Positions 3,682-63,266 of a stretch of DNA of 64,000 bases are shown in pieces. Made by a program: the position numbers and the translations under genes. How positions within the stretch are numbered: position 1 is the stretch's first letter; each line of letters opens with the position of its first letter. A model generated the notes under the pieces. The model was given only the letters and a program-made list of their open reading frames with translations. It ran no database searches and had not been told where the DNA came from. The stretch is taken from contig CAIZWN010000084.1 in assembly GCA_903936705.1 (NCBI GenBank), positions 1 to 64,000 of the forward strand. The letters run 5' to 3'. This DNA is from an uncultured Myxococcales bacterium. Its GTDB lineage: Bacteria; Myxococcota_A; UBA9042; DTJE01.

Positions 3682-4479
3682 TCACTGGCCCGAAAGTTGG
3701 TAGCTGTTGGCGAAGTCGTCCTGGATAATGGTCGCGAAGCCCCCGATGGCCGTGATTTCCAGTGGGGCCGTCAGGGTCCGGGTGCGGTACATCCATCCCT
3801 TGGGCAGCGTGAGTCGGGAGCCGAGGGTCACGAGGTCGGCCTCGGTCTGGGCCACCTTCTGCACGCTGTACGACTGCATGTCGTAGATCCTCCCGTCCGG
3901 CCCCACGAGTTCGTAGACGCTCTTGCCCGCGTCGAAGCGGACCGTCGAGTTCCGCTCGACCGTCGTGCCCGTGTACGGGGTCTTGCCAAGGGTCGCCAAG
4001 TCCGCCAGTGGGACGTCGATGCTCCCGCCGTGGCGCATTTCCAGGCCGCCGAGGGTGCGAGGCGTCGGGTCGACGAACGAACCAACCTCGAAGGCGTCCA
4101 TCAGCCAGTACCGTGGGCCGTTCAGCGCCGCGAGGGTCACGCCCGCGTCGGTCGCCACCTGCGTCGCATCGACCTTGCTCCACAGGTCCTGTGGGCAGTC
4201 GTTGATGCCGAACGTGTTGTAAACCTCGACGTGGACCAGGGTGTCGCCCATCGTAACGAGCAGGATCTCGCAATATCGCATGTTCCGGATGTCCGCAGGT
4301 GGAACATCGGCGCTGTCTGCAAAGGCCGCGTCAGCGAGGTCACCGGCATCCGGCGGTGACACGGTGTCGGCGCCCACGGCCAGATCGGATTCGGCACTGC
4401 TCGAACCGCTGCATCCGGGAGCGAAGACTAAGAAGACAACCGCCAGCACGGCAAAAATCGCAAGACCACGGAGCATCAT
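3682..4479 (-). CDS. Conserved hypothetical lipoprotein
   Basis: This is a 265-residue protein with a lipoprotein signal peptide (MMLRGLAIFAVLAVVFLVFA, then PGC as the lipobox cysteine). An Asp/Ala-rich linker of about 40 residues follows, then a globular domain beginning MRYCEILLVTM. The domain contains VYNTFGINDCPQDLW, LNGPRYWLMDAF and WMYRTRTL segments. I recognise this as a widely distributed uncharacterised domain but know no function. The upstream frame is open, but the start at 4479 is supported by AGGAGG 6 bp before the ATG. It would be lipid-anchored at the envelope. Confidence 0.75.
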   Translation of the reverse strand: MMLRGLAIFAVLAVVFLVFAPGCSGSSSAESDLAVGADTVSPPDAGDLADAAFADSADVPPADIRNMRYCEILLVTMGDTLVHVEVYNTFGINDCPQDLWSKVDATQVATDAGVTLAALNGPRYWLMDAFEVGSFVDPTPRTLGGLEMRHGGSIDVPLADLATLGKTPYTGTTVERNSTVRFDAGKSVYELVGPDGRIYDMQSYSVQKVAQTEADLVTLGSRLTLPKGWMYRTRTLTAPLEITAIGGFATIIQDDFANSYQLSGQ

Positions 4480-4780
4480 CAACACCTCCTGCACCTTGAG
4501 GCCGGGACCCGTATCCAGGGCCGCATTCGAGCACGGGACGCCCGAGGGATCAAGCCTCGGGTTCCTTCCCGACGGCACTTGTCCCTCCCGATAATTCCGT
4601 CTGCCCGGAATCATGGCGCTTTCGGGAAAGGTCGAGTGGGGTCTCCCGTTCATGAAGACCTTGCTTGACCGTCCCCGCATCGCCGCTGATACTCGGTGTC
4701 AGAAAACCCTTTGCGCATGGAAGGTCCAAGGCGTTAGCTGAATTGGGTGAATCGGGGGTATCGTGATGAAGGACAGAAAT

Positions 4781-5914
4781 ATGTTCAAGAACGCCCATAA
4801 AGTGCTGCTTTCCTGTCTGGTCGTGATGTTGTCGCTTATGATTGTATCCTGCAGCGACGACGCAAGCCCTGCACCGGTCACAGGCTGGACAATTGGATAT
4901 GTACAAAATGGAAATGCGCAAACTGTTAAAATTCTGAAGACTTCCGACGGTGGCGCGGCTTGGGTCTTGCAGACTCTCCCGGCTGAATGCGAAGGCTACG
5001 CTGGCAACGACATCAGTGCAGTTAATCAAGATGTTGCATGGGCTGCCGTGGGAGGTGATTTGAGTGCGGAAACAAAGCAATGTGCGATTCTGCATACCGA
5101 CAACGGTGGAGATGAATGGACAGTTCAAACACTCCCAAGTGGAATGAAAACCCAGCATATCAAGAATATCAAGGGCGTCAGTTCTAGCGAGGCATGGGCG
5201 GTCAGTCTGCTGGGAGACGTGCTGCACACTACCGACGGGGGCGCGAGTTGGAAAGTTGTCGAAGTCCGGGACGTCGACGGAAATAGCATTCCGGTGCAAG
5301 AGATCAACCGGATGGATGTCGTGGGTTTGGATATTTGGATTGTGGACATCATGGGGGGAGAAACGGGGGTTATTCACTCTTCGAATGGCGGCATCACCTG
5401 GCGACAGGAAAAACTATCGGGCATGGATACCCTAAGCACAGGTCCAATCGTCGTATCGGCTGTCAGTTCTCAAGTGACTTGGGCTGCGATGAACAAGGAT
5501 GGATATCTCTGGTGGACATCCAACGGCGGGAATACCTGGACAAAATCAAACGATACTCTTGTTGCCAACGCCGATTATGACGACATCTGCGCCTCCAGCG
5601 CCAATGTAATCTGGATTGCATTCAACGGAAGCTTGACAGGCGGAGGCTTCACCGCTCGTGTTACTGTCACTGACGGTAACTTTCAGACGAACCAAACGAA
5701 TCACCCGCCTTATATGTTGGAGGGGATTTCCCCCATGTCGAACGATATCGCTTGGGCGGTTGGTCAAAGAATGGCTTCCATCAATCCGGATATGCCTATG
5801 AGTGCGATTTATTATACAGAAGATGGCGGAGTCACATGGCTTTCGCAGACAATGCCGACCAACGCCCTTGATGTAACGCTTTGGAAAGTGTCGTTTGTGG
5901 GGGCAAGGCGTTAA
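4781..5914 (+). CDS. BNR/Ycf48-like repeat lipoprotein
   Basis: The product has a lipoprotein signal peptide ending IVSC, followed by a beta-propeller-like domain with at least five Asp-box motifs: TSDGGAAW, HTDNGGDEW, HTTDGGASW, HSSNGGITW and YTEDGGVTW. Such repeats occur in sialidase-like and Ycf48-like propellers that bind glycans or assist complex assembly; no catalytic residues are visible. GAAGGA lies 7 bp before the ATG at 4781, although GTG/ATG codons at 4763 and 4766 are also possible. The gene is visibly more AT-rich than its neighbours, which suggests separate acquisition. The ~300 bp upstream hold no other gene. Confidence 0.75.
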   Translation: MFKNAHKVLLSCLVVMLSLMIVSCSDDASPAPVTGWTIGYVQNGNAQTVKILKTSDGGAAWVLQTLPAECEGYAGNDISAVNQDVAWAAVGGDLSAETKQCAILHTDNGGDEWTVQTLPSGMKTQHIKNIKGVSSSEAWAVSLLGDVLHTTDGGASWKVVEVRDVDGNSIPVQEINRMDVVGLDIWIVDIMGGETGVIHSSNGGITWRQEKLSGMDTLSTGPIVVSAVSSQVTWAAMNKDGYLWWTSNGGNTWTKSNDTLVANADYDDICASSANVIWIAFNGSLTGGGFTARVTVTDGNFQTNQTNHPPYMLEGISPMSNDIAWAVGQRMASINPDMPMSAIYYTEDGGVTWLSQTMPTNALDVTLWKVSFVGARR

Positions 5915-5991
5915 TGCGCGTCGCATTCGAGGACTGGATGCTGGTCGTTACGGTCGTTGCGTTGGACCGTGAGGACCCGGAGGGTTGAACC

Positions 5992-6076
5992 ATGACTGAG
6001 ATTCTCAACATGGAACTGGGCTTTCCGGTCCTGCTGGTGAATTTCAGGATGGTCGAGGCCCGCGGCGAGCGCCTGA
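5992..6076 (+). pseudogene. Unidentified gene start cut by a family 3 repeat
   Basis: An ATG preceded by GGAGG opens a frame encoding MTEILNMELGFPVLLVNFRM followed by VEARGERL. That looks like the start of a real small protein; a LGFPVxLxNxxMVExRG pattern occurs at the start of some short HTH antitoxin-like proteins, which is a weak inference. At 6074 the frame runs into the family 3 repeat and the continuation to 6225 looks non-biological. A short open stretch before it (5924-5992) may be another decayed end. Confidence 0.35.
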
Positions 6077-6217
6077 CCGCCTTCGCTGACTCGTGCAGAA
6101 GACCCTCGCGGGTGCGCTCGGGAGACAGTTGCAAGAGCGACCTGCGCAAGAACCATTCTTTGCACGAACGCCCGTCCCTGGGATCGCCTGGCGTGAAGAC
6201 GGTCTGGGGACGGTTCA
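6074..6217 (+). repeat. Dispersed repeat, long copy (family 3)
   Basis: TGACCGCCTTCGCTGACTCG starts the copy and TGGGGACGGTT ends it; both are shared with 2420-2480. The 5' boundary coincides with the point where the preceding gene fragment loses sense. The gap from here to 6470 contains only the partial family 2 element at 6374-6450; no other gene or RNA was seen. Confidence 0.55.
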
Positions 6218-6373
6218 GCCAGTGAGGCGGGATTTTTCCAGCCCTAGAGTTTCAAATAGTTGAATGATTCCAAGGCCTCCGTCTGATTTTCACACGGTGG
6301 AAGTCGCTGGTTAAATCCCAGTATCGCCCACTTCAGAACACATCGTACTTATTCAAGTTTTAAAGAGCGTCGG

Positions 6374-6450
6374 TACATGGCAATCGCACGTTGAGGGGGC
6401 GGTCTACCCCCGCGATATTGATTGGACTAGACTGCTGCACGGAGGATCAA
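6374..6450 (+). repeat. Partial inverted-repeat element, copy 3 (family 2)
   Basis: From TACATGG to CTAGACT and the following CGGAGGATCAACC, this segment aligns with the right two-thirds of the element at 9614-9726. The left arm is missing and the right arm is diverged (GCGATATTGATTGGA), so it can no longer form the full hairpin. As at 9614, it ends just upstream of a secreted-protein operon, with a TAGACT that could serve as a -10 box. Confidence 0.45.
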
Positions 6451-6469
6451 CCACCTGGATTAGAGGTTC

Positions 6470-6961
6470 ATGATGTCTACGAGGACGCCCCGCCTAGCGA
6501 TGGTTGCGTCGATCTTCCTGTTGTCCATAAATGCCATTGAGGCCCAAGGGCAGACTTCAAGCGACACGGCCCAGGCCATCGCCCGCACGGCGGAAGTGCT
6601 GGCCAGCGAGGGCCAGCACGACGAAGCAATTGCCATGTTCAAGCTGGCCTACGGCCTCGAACTCGATTCTGCGCTGCTGTACAACCTTGGCAGCCTGCAC
6701 GACAGGAAGGGCGACATTTTTCGGGGTCGCGAGTACTACGGACGATACATATCCGACGGGAAGGATCAGTACCGACTGGCCAAGGTTCGCCAGCGGTTGC
6801 AGGACGTGCTGGACAGGATTCCTGGAACACTTGTCATCGAGACGGATACTCTTGGTGCCATTGTGGAAGTGGGCGGCAAGCCGTGGGCAGCATCGGTCGT
6901 CCTATCGGCGGGGCCTGTTCTGGGCGGAGCGGTCGTTCAGGCGACTGGGAGGTTCTGGTAA
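6470..6961 (+). CDS. Secreted TPR-like protein with truncated PEGA-type C-terminus
   Basis: The 163-residue product has a signal peptide (ATG at 6470 or 6473; MVASIFLLSINAIEAQGQ region). A tetratricopeptide-like helical region (about residues 30-110) includes SEGQHDEAIAMFKLAYGLE and YNLGSLHDRKGD. It ends with GTLVIETDTLGAIVEVGGKP, the start of a PEGA domain, and stops soon after, so the PEGA part is short or truncated. The stop codon overlaps the ATG of the next gene by one base, implying translational coupling. TPR-PEGA proteins are common in deltaproteobacterial envelopes; the role here is unknown. Confidence 0.65.
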   Translation: MMSTRTPRLAMVASIFLLSINAIEAQGQTSSDTAQAIARTAEVLASEGQHDEAIAMFKLAYGLELDSALLYNLGSLHDRKGDIFRGREYYGRYISDGKDQYRLAKVRQRLQDVLDRIPGTLVIETDTLGAIVEVGGKPWAASVVLSAGPVLGGAVVQATGRFW

Positions 6962-9531
6962 TGAAAATCCCATTGACCTGTCACGGCGCGATTTCGATGG
7001 CTGTCGCGATGATCCTGATGTCGGCATGCATCCTGAACATCTCCTGTTACAAGGGCATTCCTTCGGACATCTACTTCCAATGCACGGTGGATGGCGATTG
7101 CGGAGGCGGTTGGTCCTGCCTTCCTTGTCCGGCGGCGATTGGCCTTAATGGTGTCTGCGTGAAGAACGGGGATTCCGCGCCTGACGGTTGCGCGACTGAC
7201 CTCGACATTACGCCTATCGACGGCCAGGAGGTCGATTCCAAGGATGCTGGCGACCTGCCGGATACGATTATCGATCAGGGATCAGACGACCGCAGCGACC
7301 CTGACATGACAGTATTTGATCCGTCGCAAGATCAATCGGCGGATGCTTGTGACGACGATCAACTGCCGGATTTGAGCGAAGTCGTTTCCGACGTCAACCA
7401 TGACCTTCAGGACAGCCAAGGCGTGGACATTCCCTTGGTCGGAGTTGGAGGCGCCTGTTCGGACGATGCCAACTGTCTGGGAGGTGCCTGCCTGCCCTGG
7501 CTTGCAAACGACCCTGAATCCGCGAAAGTCTGCATTGGTCGATGCGATGACGGCTGTCCTGCCGGCTTGCAGTGCCTGGCTTCGGGCGATGCCGGCGTCG
7601 CGATGTGCATGCCGATCCCAGGGGGCCTGTGCGCGGCGTGTCAGGTGCGCTCGGACTGCCCGACTTCGGGAAGCCATTGCCTGGAGATGCCTGGGGGCGG
7701 CCGCTATTGCACCACGCCGTGCCCAACCGGAACGTGCCTGATCGGCTTTACATGCACGCTGCTGGATATAGAGGGCTTGCCAGAGGATCAGCAGAACCAG
7801 TGCCTGCCGAACCTGGGCGATTGCGCTTGCACCGCGGAACTGAAGGACATGGCATTCCCGTGCGAGATCCGCAACCAGTTCGGCTCCTGCAATGGTGTGC
7901 GCCTTTGCAGCCCGTCAGGGCAGTGGTCGGCCTGCTCGTCGCGGGTTCCGTCGCTCGAAAAGTGCAACAAGGAGGACGACGACTGCGACGGCGCCTCCGA
8001 TGATGGCTTCACCTATCGTGGCCTTGGTATGGGCGCTGAATGCGTGGGCGACGGCCTGTGCGGAATCGGTAAGGTGCAGTGTAGCATCGACGGCAGTCGG
8101 GCGACTTGCAGTAATTTCGACGGTTCCGAGTCGCAGTCAACCCCCGAGACGTGTGACTTACTGGACAACGACTGCAACGGAGAGACGGATGACGGGATGG
8201 TGGCATCCGAATTCGATTGCCGCAGAAAGGGCATCTGCACGGGAACAACCATCCCAGCGGCATGCGTGGATGGCGCTTGGTTATGCGACTACTCAGTCGT
8301 CCCCGGCTTTGAGTTTGTAGAGACTCTTTGTGACGGCATCGACAGCGATTGCGACGGCGTCATCGATGCACAGTTCCTGCTTGGCGAGCCCTGCGACGGG
8401 CCGGACACGGATCAATGCAAGAACGGAATTTTCGAGTGCAGCGCCAACGGTCGAGGAGCCACGTGCGGGGTCGAGATAATCACTGATATTCGCGAGACCT
8501 GCAGCGGTATGGATGACGACTGTGATGGCATGACCGACGAGGATTTCCCGGCGGGCGAACCGTGCGACGGGCCTGATGCAGACTCATGTTTGCTGGGGAG
8601 GTACACCTGCACTGCCGACGGCACTGGCGTCGAGTGTGTTAACGAGCCAGACCCGCCAAACCCGTCAACAGCCGAGCTTTGCGACGGTCTCGACAACGAC
8701 TGCGACGGGACCTTTGACAACGGCGGCGACGCGCTCTGCCTACCAGGCCAAGCGTGCCAGGGTTCGGCGGGATGCGTGTGCGTGCCGGACTGCACCGGTA
8801 AGGCCTGCGGTGACGACGGTTGCGGAACAAGTTGCGGTAAGTGCACCGGAATAAGAACTTGTGACGGAAACGGTAAATGCTTACTTACCGACACGGATGC
8901 CGACGGGGTTCCTGACGATGGGGACGCGTCTGGCGTGGCAGGGGACTATCTTTGTAAAGGCCTGGGCCTCCCCGCTTCTTGCGACGACAACTGCCTAACC
9001 GTGCTCAATCCCGACCAGGTCGATCATGATGGCGACGGCATGGGAGATGCGTGCGACAGCAGTACTGTCTACGCGTGCTACCAGGAGACGGCGACCGAGG
9101 CAAATAGCTGTGGAGCCGTGGGAGGAGGGAGCTATTCGAAGAACGGGGCGTGGAACGATGGCGTCTGGGATGGAAGCTACACGAACGCCGATGCTACCGG
9201 GCTATACGTGACCTACGTCAAGCCGCCGAAAGTGACAGGAGCAAAGCTAAGGATTGATCGCTATCTCTGGGAGAGCACGCACGGAATCGTTGAAGGGGAC
9301 CTCCCAAGCCAATGCTGGAGTGGGCCTGTAGCACAGCTATGGATACACCAGATTAGGAGTCCCGCAGACGGGCGCTGTAGCGCGACAGCAGGGCAGTATT
9401 GTTTGTTCGTAGATTGCTTTAATGGCTCATCCTGGATTACGGGCCCCGGCGGCTCAGGTTCCGTAAATCAATCCAATCATTTCAATACGCTATACGAGGA
9501 AGGAATAACCTGGACAATTTCTCTACCCTGA
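6961..9531 (+). CDS. Large Cys-rich MopE-like putative metal-binding lipoprotein
   Basis: This 856-residue protein has a lipoprotein-like signal peptide (MKIPLTCHGAISMAVAMILM, cysteines at SAC and SC just after). GGGAGG lies 8 bp before the ATG, which overlaps the previous stop. After an Asp-rich linker it carries Cys-rich segments and a series of MopE-type motifs: CNKEDDDCDG, CDLLDNDCNG, CDGIDSDCDG, CSGMDDDCDG and CDGLDNDCDG. Then comes a CGDDGCGTSCG block and thrombospondin type 3-like Ca2+ repeats (DTDADGVPDDGD, DHDGDGMGDACD). A C-terminal domain of ~160 residues is unrecognised. MopE repeats are associated with copper or calcium binding at the cell surface; metal identity here is inference. 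Confidence 0.8.
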   Translation: MKIPLTCHGAISMAVAMILMSACILNISCYKGIPSDIYFQCTVDGDCGGGWSCLPCPAAIGLNGVCVKNGDSAPDGCATDLDITPIDGQEVDSKDAGDLPDTIIDQGSDDRSDPDMTVFDPSQDQSADACDDDQLPDLSEVVSDVNHDLQDSQGVDIPLVGVGGACSDDANCLGGACLPWLANDPESAKVCIGRCDDGCPAGLQCLASGDAGVAMCMPIPGGLCAACQVRSDCPTSGSHCLEMPGGGRYCTTPCPTGTCLIGFTCTLLDIEGLPEDQQNQCLPNLGDCACTAELKDMAFPCEIRNQFGSCNGVRLCSPSGQWSACSSRVPSLEKCNKEDDDCDGASDDGFTYRGLGMGAECVGDGLCGIGKVQCSIDGSRATCSNFDGSESQSTPETCDLLDNDCNGETDDGMVASEFDCRRKGICTGTTIPAACVDGAWLCDYSVVPGFEFVETLCDGIDSDCDGVIDAQFLLGEPCDGPDTDQCKNGIFECSANGRGATCGVEIITDIRETCSGMDDDCDGMTDEDFPAGEPCDGPDADSCLLGRYTCTADGTGVECVNEPDPPNPSTAELCDGLDNDCDGTFDNGGDALCLPGQACQGSAGCVCVPDCTGKACGDDGCGTSCGKCTGIRTCDGNGKCLLTDTDADGVPDDGDASGVAGDYLCKGLGLPASCDDNCLTVLNPDQVDHDGDGMGDACDSSTVYACYQETATEANSCGAVGGGSYSKNGAWNDGVWDGSYTNADATGLYVTYVKPPKVTGAKLRIDRYLWESTHGIVEGDLPSQCWSGPVAQLWIHQIRSPADGRCSATAGQYCLFVDCFNGSSWITGPGGSGSVNQSNHFNTLYEEGITWTISLP

Positions 9532-30676: not shown

Positions 30677-32488
30677 CTACAGGACGACGGCGGGTTTGGC
30701 TAGTAATAGGTTCTCGGCTATTTCGAGTGCGCCGACAGGCCAGAACTCGGTCGGGCGAGGGTGTGCGACACCGGGGGCGGGCAGGGGGCGGCAGGACAGG
30801 ACCATTCGTTGCCACTGGATCGGCACAGCATCCCGTCCGTGGACAGCGCCCAGCAGAGCTCCGGCAATCGCGGCGTTGGTGTCGGTGTCGCCGCCGGCCA
30901 TCACAGTGTCTTCCACGCCCTTCTCGAAGGAGGTGGTTTTCAGCAGTCGATAGAAAGCGTTCTGAAATGCGACCAGCGCAAGGAACTTTTCACCTCCATC
31001 ACAGTCGGGCGTGTCGGTTGCGGCATTCTTTAGCGCAGCCAATACCTCGGGATGAATTGCGCTTGCGACGGCCCAGTCAAGTGCGAACTGATACGTCGCC
31101 TCGGGCGAATTGCCCGTGCGGATCGCATATGCCAGGGCCACGACGAACACGGCACATGCGTCCTGGCAAACCGGGTTGGGGTGGGTCAACGCGCTGTCGG
31201 CACGGGCTGCCGCGGCCACCTGGTCAGGGGGAAGGTCCCATCCCCATATCCCGAGGGGGCTGATGCGCATCAGCGAACCGTTCGCTTTCGACGCCTGGAT
31301 GGGATGACCGGAGAGCCCGGACGACGTTGTCCGCCCCATGTCGAACGGCGATGAATTATACCAGTGCAGGTAAGCGCCCAGTGTCGCGTCGTGGTTCCAG
31401 CCATTCTGCTCAACCAGGCTTCGCGCCAGCATCAGTGCCATTTCGGAGTCATCGGTGGGCTGGCCTGCGATGAGGTTCCACGTGCCGCCATCGGCCAGTG
31501 TGCAGATACCTGCCGGGAATCTTTCGGCCAGTGCGTCAGCCGACTGGAATTCGACTCGCGAACCAAGCGAATCCCCGGCAAATTGTCCGAGGATGCACCC
31601 TTGAGCTCGGGACAGTACTCCAGCGTCAGAGACGTTGCGACCCGGCGTCAGGCGCACCGTCGGGAAGCGACTGCCGTGGTGAATCCTGTCGGTGAACACT
31701 CGGCCCAGATCCCGGGACCTCAGGGCATCGACTACCGGGGCCGATCCACCGAGGACAGTACTTCCGTTTCCACCATGGTAGTCGAAAGGCCGTCCGGTCT
31801 CGCCGATGAGAACCCCGTCGACCGCCCGAACCAAGGCGTGTCCAGCAGCAACGTCCCAACCCGTCGGCGAGTTCAGCGACACTGCAACCTCGCCATCGCC
31901 GACCGCCACGAGTGCCAGACGGTAAGCTATGCTGGGCATACTCCTGAAACGGGCCGGTGTGACGCACTTCCGGTTTGCTTCGGACGCCTTGTCCGCGCTT
32001 TGGCTGACCAGGACAACGTGTCCGGCTGACAATTCCGCCGGCAGCGGATCGCGATGCACCGTCAGCCCGTTTCGCGTCAGCGCTTGCCCCTCGGCCCAGG
32101 CGATGAGGTCCCCCCGATCGTCCGGTGCGGCGAAAGCGAACACCACACCTAGCACGGGTTGTCCGTCGACCACGAGGCCGATGGATACGGCGGACCCCCG
32201 CATCCCCTTCAGGTACGAAACGGTTCCGTCGTTCGGGTCCACGTACCATCGGGCCGTTGCGTTCCTGGGTCCAGCCTCCCCGGTTTCCTCTCCGAGGAAC
32301 GCAATTTCAGGAAACGCCTTCAGCAGGCGTTCGCGGATCAGCAATTCGGCTTCGCGATCGGCATCCGCATGGGAACCGGCGCCCCTTGGCCCGTCAACCA
32401 GGTGAAAGTCGGTACGAAGAAGGTCTCCGGCCTTACGGGCAGACTCGATGGCGACAACAAGAGCCTTTTTCAGGTCGATCGGCGGCAT
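30677..32488 (-). CDS. Fusion of inositol-monophosphatase-like and ADP-ribosylglycohydrolase-like domains
   Basis: The 603-residue protein starts at an ATG with GGAGGT 5 bp upstream. Residues ~5-255 are an IMPase/CysQ-type Mg2+ phosphatase: GEET (Glu67, Glu68), DPNDGT (Asp84, Asp87) and GWDVAAG (Asp212). Residues ~285-585 are a DraG-type ADP-ribosylglycohydrolase: GCILGQFAGDSLGSRVEF, PTDDSEMALMLARSL (Asp346, Asp347) and AGGDTDTNAAIAGALLG (Asp534, Asp536), which bind the two metals. All key acidic residues of both domains are present, so both should be active. Likely linked substrates are phosphorylated ADP-ribose or PAP-like nucleotides, but that is inference. It is a single gene between unrelated neighbours. 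Confidence 0.88.
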   Translation of the reverse strand: MPPIDLKKALVVAIESARKAGDLLRTDFHLVDGPRGAGSHADADREAELLIRERLLKAFPEIAFLGEETGEAGPRNATARWYVDPNDGTVSYLKGMRGSAVSIGLVVDGQPVLGVVFAFAAPDDRGDLIAWAEGQALTRNGLTVHRDPLPAELSAGHVVLVSQSADKASEANRKCVTPARFRSMPSIAYRLALVAVGDGEVAVSLNSPTGWDVAAGHALVRAVDGVLIGETGRPFDYHGGNGSTVLGGSAPVVDALRSRDLGRVFTDRIHHGSRFPTVRLTPGRNVSDAGVLSRAQGCILGQFAGDSLGSRVEFQSADALAERFPAGICTLADGGTWNLIAGQPTDDSEMALMLARSLVEQNGWNHDATLGAYLHWYNSSPFDMGRTTSSGLSGHPIQASKANGSLMRISPLGIWGWDLPPDQVAAAARADSALTHPNPVCQDACAVFVVALAYAIRTGNSPEATYQFALDWAVASAIHPEVLAALKNAATDTPDCDGGEKFLALVAFQNAFYRLLKTTSFEKGVEDTVMAGGDTDTNAAIAGALLGAVHGRDAVPIQWQRMVLSCRPLPAPGVAHPRPTEFWPVGALEIAENLLLAKPAVVL

Positions 32489-32653: not shown

Positions 32654-33649
32654 ATGTCGAAGGACTGGACACCAGGTGATTTAGTCGCAATGGCCCGTGG
32701 TTACCAGAACGCTGCCGTGGTGATGGCGGCTGCGGAACTGGAGCTGTTCGACCGCCTGGCCGGCGGCGACTTCACCGCCGAGGGGGCTGCGTCCAGGCTC
32801 TCGGTCGACCTGCGCGCGCTGGCGACCCTTCTGGATGCCCTGGCGGCCATCCAGTTGCTGGACAAGCGCGGCGATCGGTACGGCGTGCCGCCCGGCGTGG
32901 AGGGCCTCCTTACCGCTGCGGGCCGCGGGAGCTTCCTGGCCCTGGTGCAGCACCACGCCAACTGCATGCGTCGCTGGACGAACCTGGCCCGCGTCGTCCA
33001 GACAGGGCAGCCAGCGCATTGTGAAGCCAGCGTGCGAGGCGAGGCTGCGGACCTTCAGGCGTTTATCGATGCGATGGACAACCTCGCCGATCCGATCGCC
33101 ACCCGGCTGATTGCCGAACTACCCGTGCCGCCGTTCACGCGACTGCTGGACGTGGGTGGCGCGTCCGGTTCGTGGACAATCGCCTTTCTTCGCCGCGACC
33201 CGGAAGCTACCGCGATTCTGTTTGACCTGGCGGCGGTCATCCCGCAGGCCGAGGGTCGGATCTCCGCGTCTGGCTTGCGTGATCGGGTCGAACTGGTCGC
33301 CGGGGACTTCTATGTCGATGTCCTTCCCGACGGCGCGGACCTCGTCTGGGTCAGCGCGATCGTCCACCAGAACTCCAGGCAGCAGAACCGGGAACTGTTC
33401 GCGGCGGTCCACCGGGCCAGCTTACCCGGCGGGCACGTTCTGATCCGCGACATCGTTATGGATGAGTCAAGGACCGCCCCGATCGCCGGCGCGCTGTTCG
33501 CCGTCAACATGCTGGTCGGAACGCACCACGGCGGCACGTTCACCCTAAGCGAACTTCGCGAGGACCTCGAATACGCCGGCTTCGTCGACGTGAGGCTTCT
33601 GCGCAGCGACGAAGGGATGCACTCGGTCGTCCAGGCCATCAAGGGCTGA
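32654..33649 (+). CDS. SAM-dependent O-methyltransferase with dimerisation domain
   Basis: The 331-residue product has an N-terminal winged-helix dimerisation domain (ELELFDRLAGGDFTAEGAAS to ~residue 90). A Rossmann methyltransferase domain follows: RLLDVGGASGSWTIAFL is motif I binding SAM, ILFDL is motif II, RVELVAGDFYVDVLPDGADL covers motif III, and GGHVLIRDIVMDES is motif IV/V. This is the Methyltransf_2 layout of small-molecule O-methyltransferases. A catalytic His may be in SAIVHQNSRQQN. GGAGG lies 7 bp before the ATG. The substrate is unknown and no biosynthetic partner is adjacent. Confidence 0.85.
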   Translation: MSKDWTPGDLVAMARGYQNAAVVMAAAELELFDRLAGGDFTAEGAASRLSVDLRALATLLDALAAIQLLDKRGDRYGVPPGVEGLLTAAGRGSFLALVQHHANCMRRWTNLARVVQTGQPAHCEASVRGEAADLQAFIDAMDNLADPIATRLIAELPVPPFTRLLDVGGASGSWTIAFLRRDPEATAILFDLAAVIPQAEGRISASGLRDRVELVAGDFYVDVLPDGADLVWVSAIVHQNSRQQNRELFAAVHRASLPGGHVLIRDIVMDESRTAPIAGALFAVNMLVGTHHGGTFTLSELREDLEYAGFVDVRLLRSDEGMHSVVQAIKG

Positions 33650-61224: not shown

Positions 61225-62190
61225 TCAATTTGCGGGGCTGCCGAAGGAACGCACCAGCCGCAGCAGGATCTCGCGCCTGACGGTCGCCGGCAGCACGACG
61301 GTTGCATCCCCCGCAAACGACAGGACCCAGCCTGCCAGGAACACTTCCGAATCGTATGGGATTCGGACGTCGATCGTCCCGTCGGGCCGTTCTGTCACGT
61401 CTGCCGGCGGGTGGCGTTCGCGTATCCACGGGGCGACGCGTTTGGCAAAGCGGACCAGTGCCTCTGGTGGTTCGGCGCCTTGCCTGATCCCGCCTGGGGC
61501 CATGGTCGATTCAGGCGGTGAAACATGCCTGCCAGTCCTGCGGCACCCGACAATTCGGTCCATGCGGAATCGACGCTCGTCATGGCGTAGACGGCAGACT
61601 GCGTCCAGGTACCAGGTGCCGTTGCGGTTCACCAGACCTTTCGGAGACACCAGGCGGCGCGTGACCTCGTCCCGTGATGCCGACCAGTACTCGATTTCCA
61701 GTTCCTCGCCTGTGCGTGCCGCGGCCTGGATGTCCGTCCAGCGGGCATCCGTCGGTTCCAGTGTCGGGATTTCAAGTGACACTGGGGTATCGCAATCAGC
61801 GGGGCGAGGTTCTACGTGGGGAATCACCTTGGCAAGGATGGCGGTGGCCTCGTGGCCCAGGGCTTGCGAGGGGCCCGAGCAGGCGGCCCGGACAGCGGCG
61901 GCAAGTGCCGCGAATTCGGATGCCGTCAGTGGCAGTGGTCGTCGTCCCAACCCCTGGTCCAGGTTTGGAGGCAGATCGACGGTCTCTCCGTCGATGTCGA
62001 TGTCGACGAACTCGTAGCCACGATCCTCATCCCCGTGGACCATCTGCAATCTGGAAACGGCTTCCACAACGGCATGTCGGTCCAGGCCAATGCGGGCAGC
62101 CAGGTCGTCGATGTTCATGGTCCCGCCGGCCCTGCGCAGTGTCGCCAGGACAAGTTGCAGTTGCTCGACGTCGCGCGCCGTGGAATTCAT
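61225..62190 (-). CDS. WYL-domain transcriptional regulator (first of a pair)
   Basis: The 321-residue protein has an N-terminal winged-helix-like region (QLQLVLATLRRAGGTMNIDD, VVEAVSRLQMVH). A WYL domain follows with LEIEYWSASRDEVTRRLVSP and NGTWYLDAVCRLRHDERRFR, where the W-Y-L signature is WYLDA. WYL domains sense ligands, often nucleotide or DNA ends. Its ATG overlaps the stop of the upstream WYL gene (ATGA). The arrangement is like PafB/PafC pairs, which act as a heterodimer in the DNA-damage response. Confidence 0.87.
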   Translation of the reverse strand: MNSTARDVEQLQLVLATLRRAGGTMNIDDLAARIGLDRHAVVEAVSRLQMVHGDEDRGYEFVDIDIDGETVDLPPNLDQGLGRRPLPLTASEFAALAAAVRAACSGPSQALGHEATAILAKVIPHVEPRPADCDTPVSLEIPTLEPTDARWTDIQAAARTGEELEIEYWSASRDEVTRRLVSPKGLVNRNGTWYLDAVCRLRHDERRFRMDRIVGCRRTGRHVSPPESTMAPGGIRQGAEPPEALVRFAKRVAPWIRERHPPADVTERPDGTIDVRIPYDSEVFLAGWVLSFAGDATVVLPATVRREILLRLVRSFGSPAN

Positions 62191-63266
62191 GCCGCTTCCT
62201 CCGGTTCAGGCGGGTCGGAATGGGCGGCGGCAACCCGATCGACCAGCTCGGCAAACCGATCGACGGCCTCGGGAGGCCCGAGGATCCGGGCTCGCCCCCA
62301 CAGTGACAGGACAAGGCCCAGCAGCGGTTGCAAGTCGGTGGCCGTCACTTCAATCGTCAGGCCGCCGTCAGGCAACTGGGCGACGGTGCGTGCGCCGGCA
62401 AGACGCGTGCCTGATATTCCGGCCACCGTCCGGTCCAACGACAACGTGACGCAAACGGCAGGATGCTTCGCGAATTCCCAGGGTTCTCGGCGCGTCCAGG
62501 CCGAATTATCGAAGTCCGCGGGCCGTTCAAAGGCGGCCGCCGGGCCATCTGCGCGAACCTGTTGCATTCGGTGGGCGTCAAACAGTCGCACATCGTTACG
62601 AAGGTGGCACCACCCGACCAGATGCCATACCCCGCGTCGCAGGAACAGGCTCCACGGGTCCAGCAGTCGCGAAACGTCATTCCCTGAACCCAGCGATCGA
62701 TAGGTGACTCTGATTTGCCGACGCTCGATTACCGCTTCGGCAAGCGTTGCGAGGGTTTGTTTCAGGTTGGGGGCGCGGACGGCCAGTCGATGACCGCAGG
62801 ACCAGGCCGCTGCCACGTGTCCGTCGGCCGTTGAGAGATCAAGCCCCGAGGTAAGGGCCGACAATTTTGCGATGGCCATGGAAAGGTCGGATCCCAGGGG
62901 AAAGCCCTCGATTCCCCGGACCAGCGCCGCCGCCAGCCGGACCGATTCCGCCTGGGTCGCGTCCAGGTAGAGCTCTGGTGCGCGGAAGGCATCGGAATCA
63001 AGAATGTATCCTTCGTCGTCGCCGTCCCCACCCTTCAGGTGCCGGATCCGCAGACCCAGCGAGCCCAGGATGTCCTGGTCGCGCAGGAACTTGCGTCGCC
63101 CTGCCACAAAGGCCTTCCGGGACGGTTCGTCGCCAGCGTCCGACTCCGGGGGGCCGTATGCCCCGTCCATCCGCTCTTGAATCCAAGCAAGGGGAACGGG
63201 GACGCGGCGGTCCAGCAGCAGCGCGACCAGTGAAAGGATGCGTATTCCTGGGGCTTCGTCGATCAT
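62187..63266 (-). CDS. WYL-domain transcriptional regulator (second of a pair)
   Basis: The 359-residue protein starts MIDEAPGIRILSLVALLLDR, a helix-turn-helix region, and has a WYL domain: RRQIRVTYRSLGSGNDVSR, RRGVWHLVGWCHLRNDVRLF, where the signature is WHLVG. The C-terminal extension (LTIEVTATDLQPLLGLVLSL) is typical of WYL_C domains. It probably acts with the overlapping WYL gene downstream. The start is the ATG at 63266; the in-frame extension to 63311 is not supported. Confidence 0.86.
   Translation of the reverse strand: MIDEAPGIRILSLVALLLDRRVPVPLAWIQERMDGAYGPPESDAGDEPSRKAFVAGRRKFLRDQDILGSLGLRIRHLKGGDGDDEGYILDSDAFRAPELYLDATQAESVRLAAALVRGIEGFPLGSDLSMAIAKLSALTSGLDLSTADGHVAAAWSCGHRLAVRAPNLKQTLATLAEAVIERRQIRVTYRSLGSGNDVSRLLDPWSLFLRRGVWHLVGWCHLRNDVRLFDAHRMQQVRADGPAAAFERPADFDNSAWTRREPWEFAKHPAVCVTLSLDRTVAGISGTRLAGARTVAQLPDGGLTIEVTATDLQPLLGLVLSLWGRARILGPPEAVDRFAELVDRVAAAHSDPPEPEEAA

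Follow-up and report, generated by a model that had tools for sequence, protein, structure and literature searches.

A single-chain IMPase-like phosphatase and DraG-like ADP-ribosylglycohydrolase of Myxococcota: a possible eraser of ADP-ribose marks

Introduction

A family of antiviral systems centred on an ADP-ribosylglycohydrolase (ARG) domain has been predicted (Iyer, Burroughs, Anantharaman and Aravind, 2022; PMC9503650, section 3.8). In these systems the ARG is associated with a phosphatase in one chain or one operon, restriction endonucleases and helicases are found among the neighbours, no ADP-ribosyltransferase or sirtuin is coupled to the set, and a WYL or Nudix sensor is present in about 42% of the cases. 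The phosphatases listed there are of the rhodanese type, calcineurin-like, HD and HAD 5′-nucleotidase; the words 'inositol', 'IMPase' and 'monophosphatase' are absent from the main text of that article. The present work deals with a gene that joins an inositol-monophosphatase (IMPase)-like domain and a DraG-like ADP-ribosylglycohydrolase in a single polypeptide. It is carried by a stretch of 64,000 nucleotides, called here the window, from an uncultured Myxococcales bacterium (positions 1 to 64,000 of contig CAIZWN010000084.1, assembly GCA_903936705.1). Our search of the open-access literature found no record of such a fusion and no assay of any member, so that an earlier mention is possible. 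An original prediction, made from the letters alone, had recognized both domains in one chain without giving the strand, and had proposed that they process a substrate in succession, for example the ADP-ribose 1″-phosphate (ADPr-1″-P) that results from RNA 2′-phosphate removal, or that they reverse a phospho-ADP-ribosyl modification. Tentatively, and with somewhat less than even confidence, we favour the view that the protein is a two-headed eraser of ADP-ribose marks, with a likely role in stress or antiviral responses, where an IMPase-type enzyme occupies the phosphatase slot of the ARG-centred systems.

A genuine fusion with a wide distribution

The gene lies on the minus strand (Table 1). 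Its frame encodes 603 amino acids between an ATG at 32488, the start also used by the closest relative, and a stop codon at 30677-30679; additional in-frame starts are present upstream of this ATG, as far as 32608. Pfam recognizes Inositol_P at residues 6-239 (E 1.2e-35, 124 bits for a cut-off of 27) and ADP_ribosyl_GH at residues 297-556 (E 1.7e-62, 212 bits for a cut-off of 26). As had been predicted, both domains keep their metal-binding acidic residues: the motifs GEE (67-68), DPNDGT (84-89) and WD (212) are found in the IMPase half, and TDD (345-347), PFD (383), NG (403), TH (436) and GGDTDTN (532-538) in the DraG half. Beyond the Pfam match, a C-terminal tail (557-603) is kept both in the fused and in the stand-alone proteins of the DraG clade.

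The original prediction had allowed that the fusion might be unique to one assembly, with a junction created by a sequencing error, or that both sites might be inactive. Neither is the case: both sites are intact here, and looking for further fusions, as it had proposed, revealed many. In a sample of 379 Myxococcota genomes, full-length fusions occur in 32 (~8%), spread over eleven families that include the window's own, the other Myxococcota proteins being 38-80% identical to that of the window. Full-length fusions are also present on four Pseudomonadota plasmids (Azospirillum brasilense, A. ramasamyi, Rhodobacter sp. CZR27 and Pseudomonas luteola) and on one IMG/VR contig (L147). Measured against the nearest relative, the ratio of nonsynonymous to synonymous substitution rates (dN/dS) is 0.09-0.13 in the IMPase half and 0.14-0.20 in the DraG half, with identities of 83% and 78% respectively, the linker (263-285) being the least conserved segment at 61%; both halves are under purifying selection. 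An assembly or frameshift artefact at the junction is rejected, because this relative, 80% identical overall, belongs to an independent assembly of the same genus and because dN/dS is low.

Table 1. Features of the IMPase–DraG gene, in window coordinates
Feature	Position	Strand	Basis
IMPase–DraG fusion coding sequence	30677..32488	-	open frame and end-to-end homologues
Inositol-monophosphatase-like domain PF00459, residues 6-239	31772..32473	-	Pfam, Foldseek, invariant catalytic residues
IMPase metal motifs E67-E68 and D84-P-N-D87-G-T89	32222..32290	-	E67, E68, D84, P85, D87, G88, T89 invariant in 31/31 fusions
End of IMPase fold and inter-domain linker, residues 240-296	31601..31771	-	low conservation at 263-285, lower model confidence at ~261-280
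DraG/ARH-type ADP-ribosylglycohydrolase PF03747, residues 297-556	30821..31600	-	Pfam, Foldseek
T345-D346-D347 metal motif and DraG-type aspartate D383	31340..31456	-	DraG alignment; conserved in 27-29/31
GGDTDTN metal motif, residues 532-538	30875..30895	-	D534 in 30/31, D536 in 28/31
Clade-specific C-terminal tail R..VL.CRP...HPRP..FWP...LEIAE.LL, residues 557-603	30680..30820	-	fused and stand-alone clade members

A divergent O-methyltransferase gene (PF00891 and a dimerisation domain) stands on the plus strand at 32654-33649, 45 bp beyond the outermost of the fusion's in-frame starts, and an O-methyltransferase also adjoins the fusion in L004. Elsewhere in the host genome, contig C33 carries at 4254-4414 (L002, L003) the broken 3′-end remnant of another such gene, a second copy, which covers residues 543-597 in two frames at ~71% identity.

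Active sites and structure

Across 31 fusion sequences, the IMPase positions D44, E67, E68, D84, D87, G88, T89, R97, R190 and D212 are invariant, and the DraG residues T345, D346, D347, D534 and D536 are all retained in 27. Most fusions also possess D383, which corresponds to Asp97 of R. rubrum DraG (its role is taken from PMC7050489), and E313, the Glu-flap glutamate; Glu121 of DraG, in the ExxA adenine motif, is not conserved as judged by pairwise alignment only. Run on the family alignment, AlphaFold2 gave a model with a mean pLDDT of 94.6 and a pTM of 0.94, confidence being lower near residues 261-280, and because of these values the two halves are predicted to be packed rigidly in one fixed arrangement. 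Foldseek matched the IMPase half to SuhB/IMPase structures (TM score ~0.78) and the DraG half to the DraG proteins of R. rubrum and A. brasilense (TM score 0.84-0.87); no solved structure spanning both halves was among the fold matches listed. A viral counterpart uniting both domains was considered and rejected, the viral fold library having yielded matches to one half each, as judged by alignment length: mostly ADP-ribosylglycohydrolases, and one fructose-bisphosphatase.

Family history

In a tree of the phosphatases the fused IMPase halves group in one clade, fully supported by SH-aLRT, that excludes SuhB and CysQ of E. coli as well as other Myxococcota IMPases and takes in stand-alone IMPases of Pseudomonas plasmids. 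In the DraG tree, unfused proteins of Myxococcota and Rhizobiaceae plasmids are interspersed with the fused ones or adjoin them. Since stand-alone versions are placed in this way among fused ones, the two halves appear to have been separated, or singly lost, several times; both trees are quick ones, the inner branches of which are often weak. Two genomes of one family (G252 and G284) contain both halves unlinked, on different contigs, and in eight more, which carry a stand-alone DraG cousin, the only IMPases are ordinary ones. Membership in the CysQ family, suspected from the stretches GVVxAP, WDxAAGHA and GxPxDY, was discarded: CysQ does not belong to the clade, and SuhB/IMPase is the better match by fold.

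Genomic contexts

On plasmids and other mobile DNA, relatives of the gene keep company reminiscent of the ARG-centred systems, within or next to antiviral gene clusters. In P. luteola a WYL gene lies just upstream of the fusion and a TM0106 nuclease-helicase gene downstream. In Rhodobacter a NUDIX gene begins 8 bp downstream of the fusion, WYL and TM0106 genes are nearby, and a SIR2-family gene is found ~10 kb away. The IMG/VR contig L147 has the same gene order, the fusion being followed 85 bp downstream by a NUDIX gene and then by McrBC, and the two loci are 65% identical in the fusion and 63% in the NUDIX protein. No helix-turn-helix domain was matched in the fusion-linked NUDIX proteins. 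Their NUDIX domain is joined (L147:2850-4163) or adjacent (Rhodobacter, L078:13725-15045) to a domain of 250 amino acids which has a conserved HLHRSWTG motif and lacks a Pfam match; the fusion has this combination as its partner in both loci. Stand-alone genes of the DraG clade overlap or abut defence genes: Mrr-McrB-McrC in three instances (L150, L160 and L161), Mrr and an AAA ATPase in L148, a PDC-S68 helicase in L149 and a McrB-like gene in L151. On the three IMG/VR contigs with Mrr-McrB-McrC (~3825-8939), the set consists of four overlapping genes, for a Mrr-like restriction endonuclease, McrB, McrC and a DraG-like hydrolase. The PADLOC-DB profiles gave no match for the fusion or the stand-alone halves, the DraG of the Mrr-McrBC clusters included.

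Among Myxococcota, no conserved operon could be recognized around the fusion, apart from a pair of WYL genes in one family: in four genomes of family f22 (G193, G213, G360 and G362) two WYL-regulator genes are placed immediately upstream of it, and in three of the four this pair accounts for the only WYL genes found. A tandem pair of WYL-domain regulators resembling this one is present in the window on the minus strand (61546-62756), ~29 kb from the fusion. No ADP-ribosyltransferase or sirtuin was seen among the 25 commonest families listed for the two neighbours on either side of the fusions, and no gene for a peptide-binding chaperone (vWA, SseB, TY-Chap) or for ARPP, components of the ARG-centred systems, was identified near the fusion, where no dedicated search for them was made.

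Proposed role and competing explanations

We may then picture the eraser as follows. The DraG half, the fold and catalytic residues of which are those of a two-metal centre, would cleave the alpha bond at C1″ that ties ADP-ribose to a macromolecule, and the IMPase half would take a phosphate off the same adduct or off a compound into which the freed ADP-ribose is degraded, candidates being ribose-5-phosphate or AMP after NUDIX cleavage. WYL or NUDIX proteins would be regulators or partners of the relatives on mobile elements, which appear to travel with restriction and helicase genes; it is because of this company that a stress or antiviral role seems likely. The function would be to reverse ADP-ribosylation carried out by phage or by other foreign ADP-ribosyltransferases. 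The broader notion that a modification is reversed, already part of the original prediction, suits this context.

Several observations weigh against this account. The gene is solitary between unrelated neighbours in the window and in most Myxococcota, with no ADP-ribosyltransferase, WYL or NUDIX gene coupled to it at the window locus, and we read its putative membership in the antiviral kind as resting on the relatives rather than on that locus. Several of the informative contexts come from contigs of a viral collection (IMG/VR) that are possibly mislabelled host islands. Each half also exists as a stand-alone protein, so that neither absolutely needs the other. Finally, L024 has one change in the DraG site, the DraG sites of L030, L032 and L035 look dead, and in L073, L074, L075 and L109 the IMPase half is kept with a shortened and degenerate DraG-like tail. 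The DraG site has thus decayed repeatedly and the IMPase site, intact in all the lineages of decay, never; a strict two-step relay is therefore not obligatory. The core of the original prediction, two intact metallo-hydrolases that share one chain and act on ADP-ribose chemistry, is supported.

This asymmetry lends some weight to a different explanation, unlikely as we see it, according to which the phosphatase is the main, possibly housekeeping, enzyme and the DraG half an accessory module, for binding, folding or regulation, active only in some lineages. The invariance of the IMPase site, the nesting of the Pseudomonas plasmid enzymes inside the fusion clade and the fact that the host genome yielded no other PF00459 protein all go in this direction. 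However, the DraG site remains intact in the large set counted above and its domain is under purifying selection, while some genomes devoid of the clade's IMPase still carry a DraG protein of the clade by itself; moreover, a housekeeping role is ill-suited to a patchy distribution and to carriage by plasmids.

One may also consider, as a rather unlikely proposal, that a 2′(3′)-phospho-ADP-ribosyl mark is taken off in a strict order of two steps, where the IMPase half would strip the adenosine 2′-phosphate of an NADP-derived adduct and the DraG half release ADP-ribose, or the reverse. Such a substrate chemically needs both steps. NADP(H) phosphatase activity is on record for archaeal IMPase and bacterial PAP phosphatase (Fukuda 2007 and MJ0917, both as cited in PMC8553519), the 2′ and 3′ hydroxyls of the proximal ribose face the solvent in DraG (PMC7050489), and the IMPase half has two invariant arginines, R97 and R190. 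Yet a substrate cannot be transferred to this half by similarity, as it groups in a clade to which neither CysQ nor SuhB of E. coli belongs and scores below every NCBIfam cut-off; no NADP-dependent transferase is linked to the fusion, and several lineages dispense with the DraG half.

Metabolite repair or salvage is improbable: here the DraG half would remove alpha-NAD(P) or O-acetyl-ADP-ribose and the IMPase half would dephosphorylate. The NADP phosphatase activity known in the IMPase superfamily (PMC8553519) and the solitary position of the gene in Myxococcota, as might be the case for a metabolic repair gene, are consistent with it, but the full fusion is present in only a small minority of the genomes sampled, and relatives elsewhere are found in mobile and defence contexts. 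A bolder version of the eraser, in which the fusion would be dedicated to an undescribed phospho-ADP-ribosyl mark, with obligatory successive steps in a mobile antiviral module (for example 2′-phospho-ADP-ribose put in place by a viral transferase using NADP), strikes us as distinctly improbable.

The clean-up of ADPr-1″-P after KptA-dependent removal of RNA 2′-phosphate, the example given in the original prediction, is very improbable and fails on chemistry, host gene content and distribution: even though ribose and phosphate groups are the targets of both folds, either half alone would convert ADPr-1″-P to ADP-ribose and leave the second step without a substrate, the host genome (96% complete) has neither KptA nor a macro domain, and 20 of the 32 fusion genomes are without KptA. 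Strong KptA matches are somewhat commoner with the fusion (12/32 against 53/347 in the other genomes, Fisher p 0.005), but once the genomes are split by size the excess loses significance in each class (p 0.09 and 1.0); on this co-occurrence over the 379 genomes, KptA is rejected as a requirement.

Coming back to the eraser of ADP-ribose marks, its consequences would be of some importance. The predicted ARG-centred antiviral systems would gain a further kind of phosphatase and a wide host range, from Myxococcota to the plasmids of Pseudomonadota. A single polypeptide is easy to purify and to test, and its substrate, once found, would reveal which phosphorylated ADP-ribose species matters in conflicts, since release and dephosphorylation sit in one chain that is predicted to be rigid.

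Comparison with known systems

With DraG the fusion shares the fold, the TDD and GGDxDT metal motifs, the Glu-flap glutamate and the equivalent of Asp97; it differs in being joined to a phosphatase, in its own C-terminal tail and in the Glu121 motif, and its score against the DraG equivalog TIGR02662 (107.9 bits) is well below the cut-off of 337. As for the DraT partner, no PF07357 match was obtained in the host genome, nor with the positive control. With SuhB/inositol monophosphatase, HisN and CysQ it has in common the fold and all the two-metal catalytic residues, whereas its IMPase clade is marked by invariant R97 and R190, and the NCBIfam equivalog cut-offs for CysQ, HisN and SuhB are missed (80/229, 79/275 and 67/332 bits, respectively). 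MJ0917, an IMPase joined to an NAD kinase (PMC8553519), likewise couples an IMPase-type domain to a second enzyme of NAD chemistry; this likeness is drawn from the published description, and MJ0917 is archaeal, with a kinase as partner instead of an ADP-ribosyl hydrolase. The ARG-centred systems come closest. The IMPase type is not in the published list of their phosphatases, and most Myxococcota copies are solitary, unlike these systems; what is shared is the union of an ARG and a phosphatase in one polypeptide and, among relatives, restriction-endonuclease and helicase genes as neighbours. WYL or NUDIX genes lie near the fusion in the four f22 genomes, Rhodobacter, P. luteola and L147, and are absent beside the copy in the window and most Myxococcota copies. 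We tentatively read the fusion as an IMPase-type variant of the predicted ARG-centred antiviral kind.
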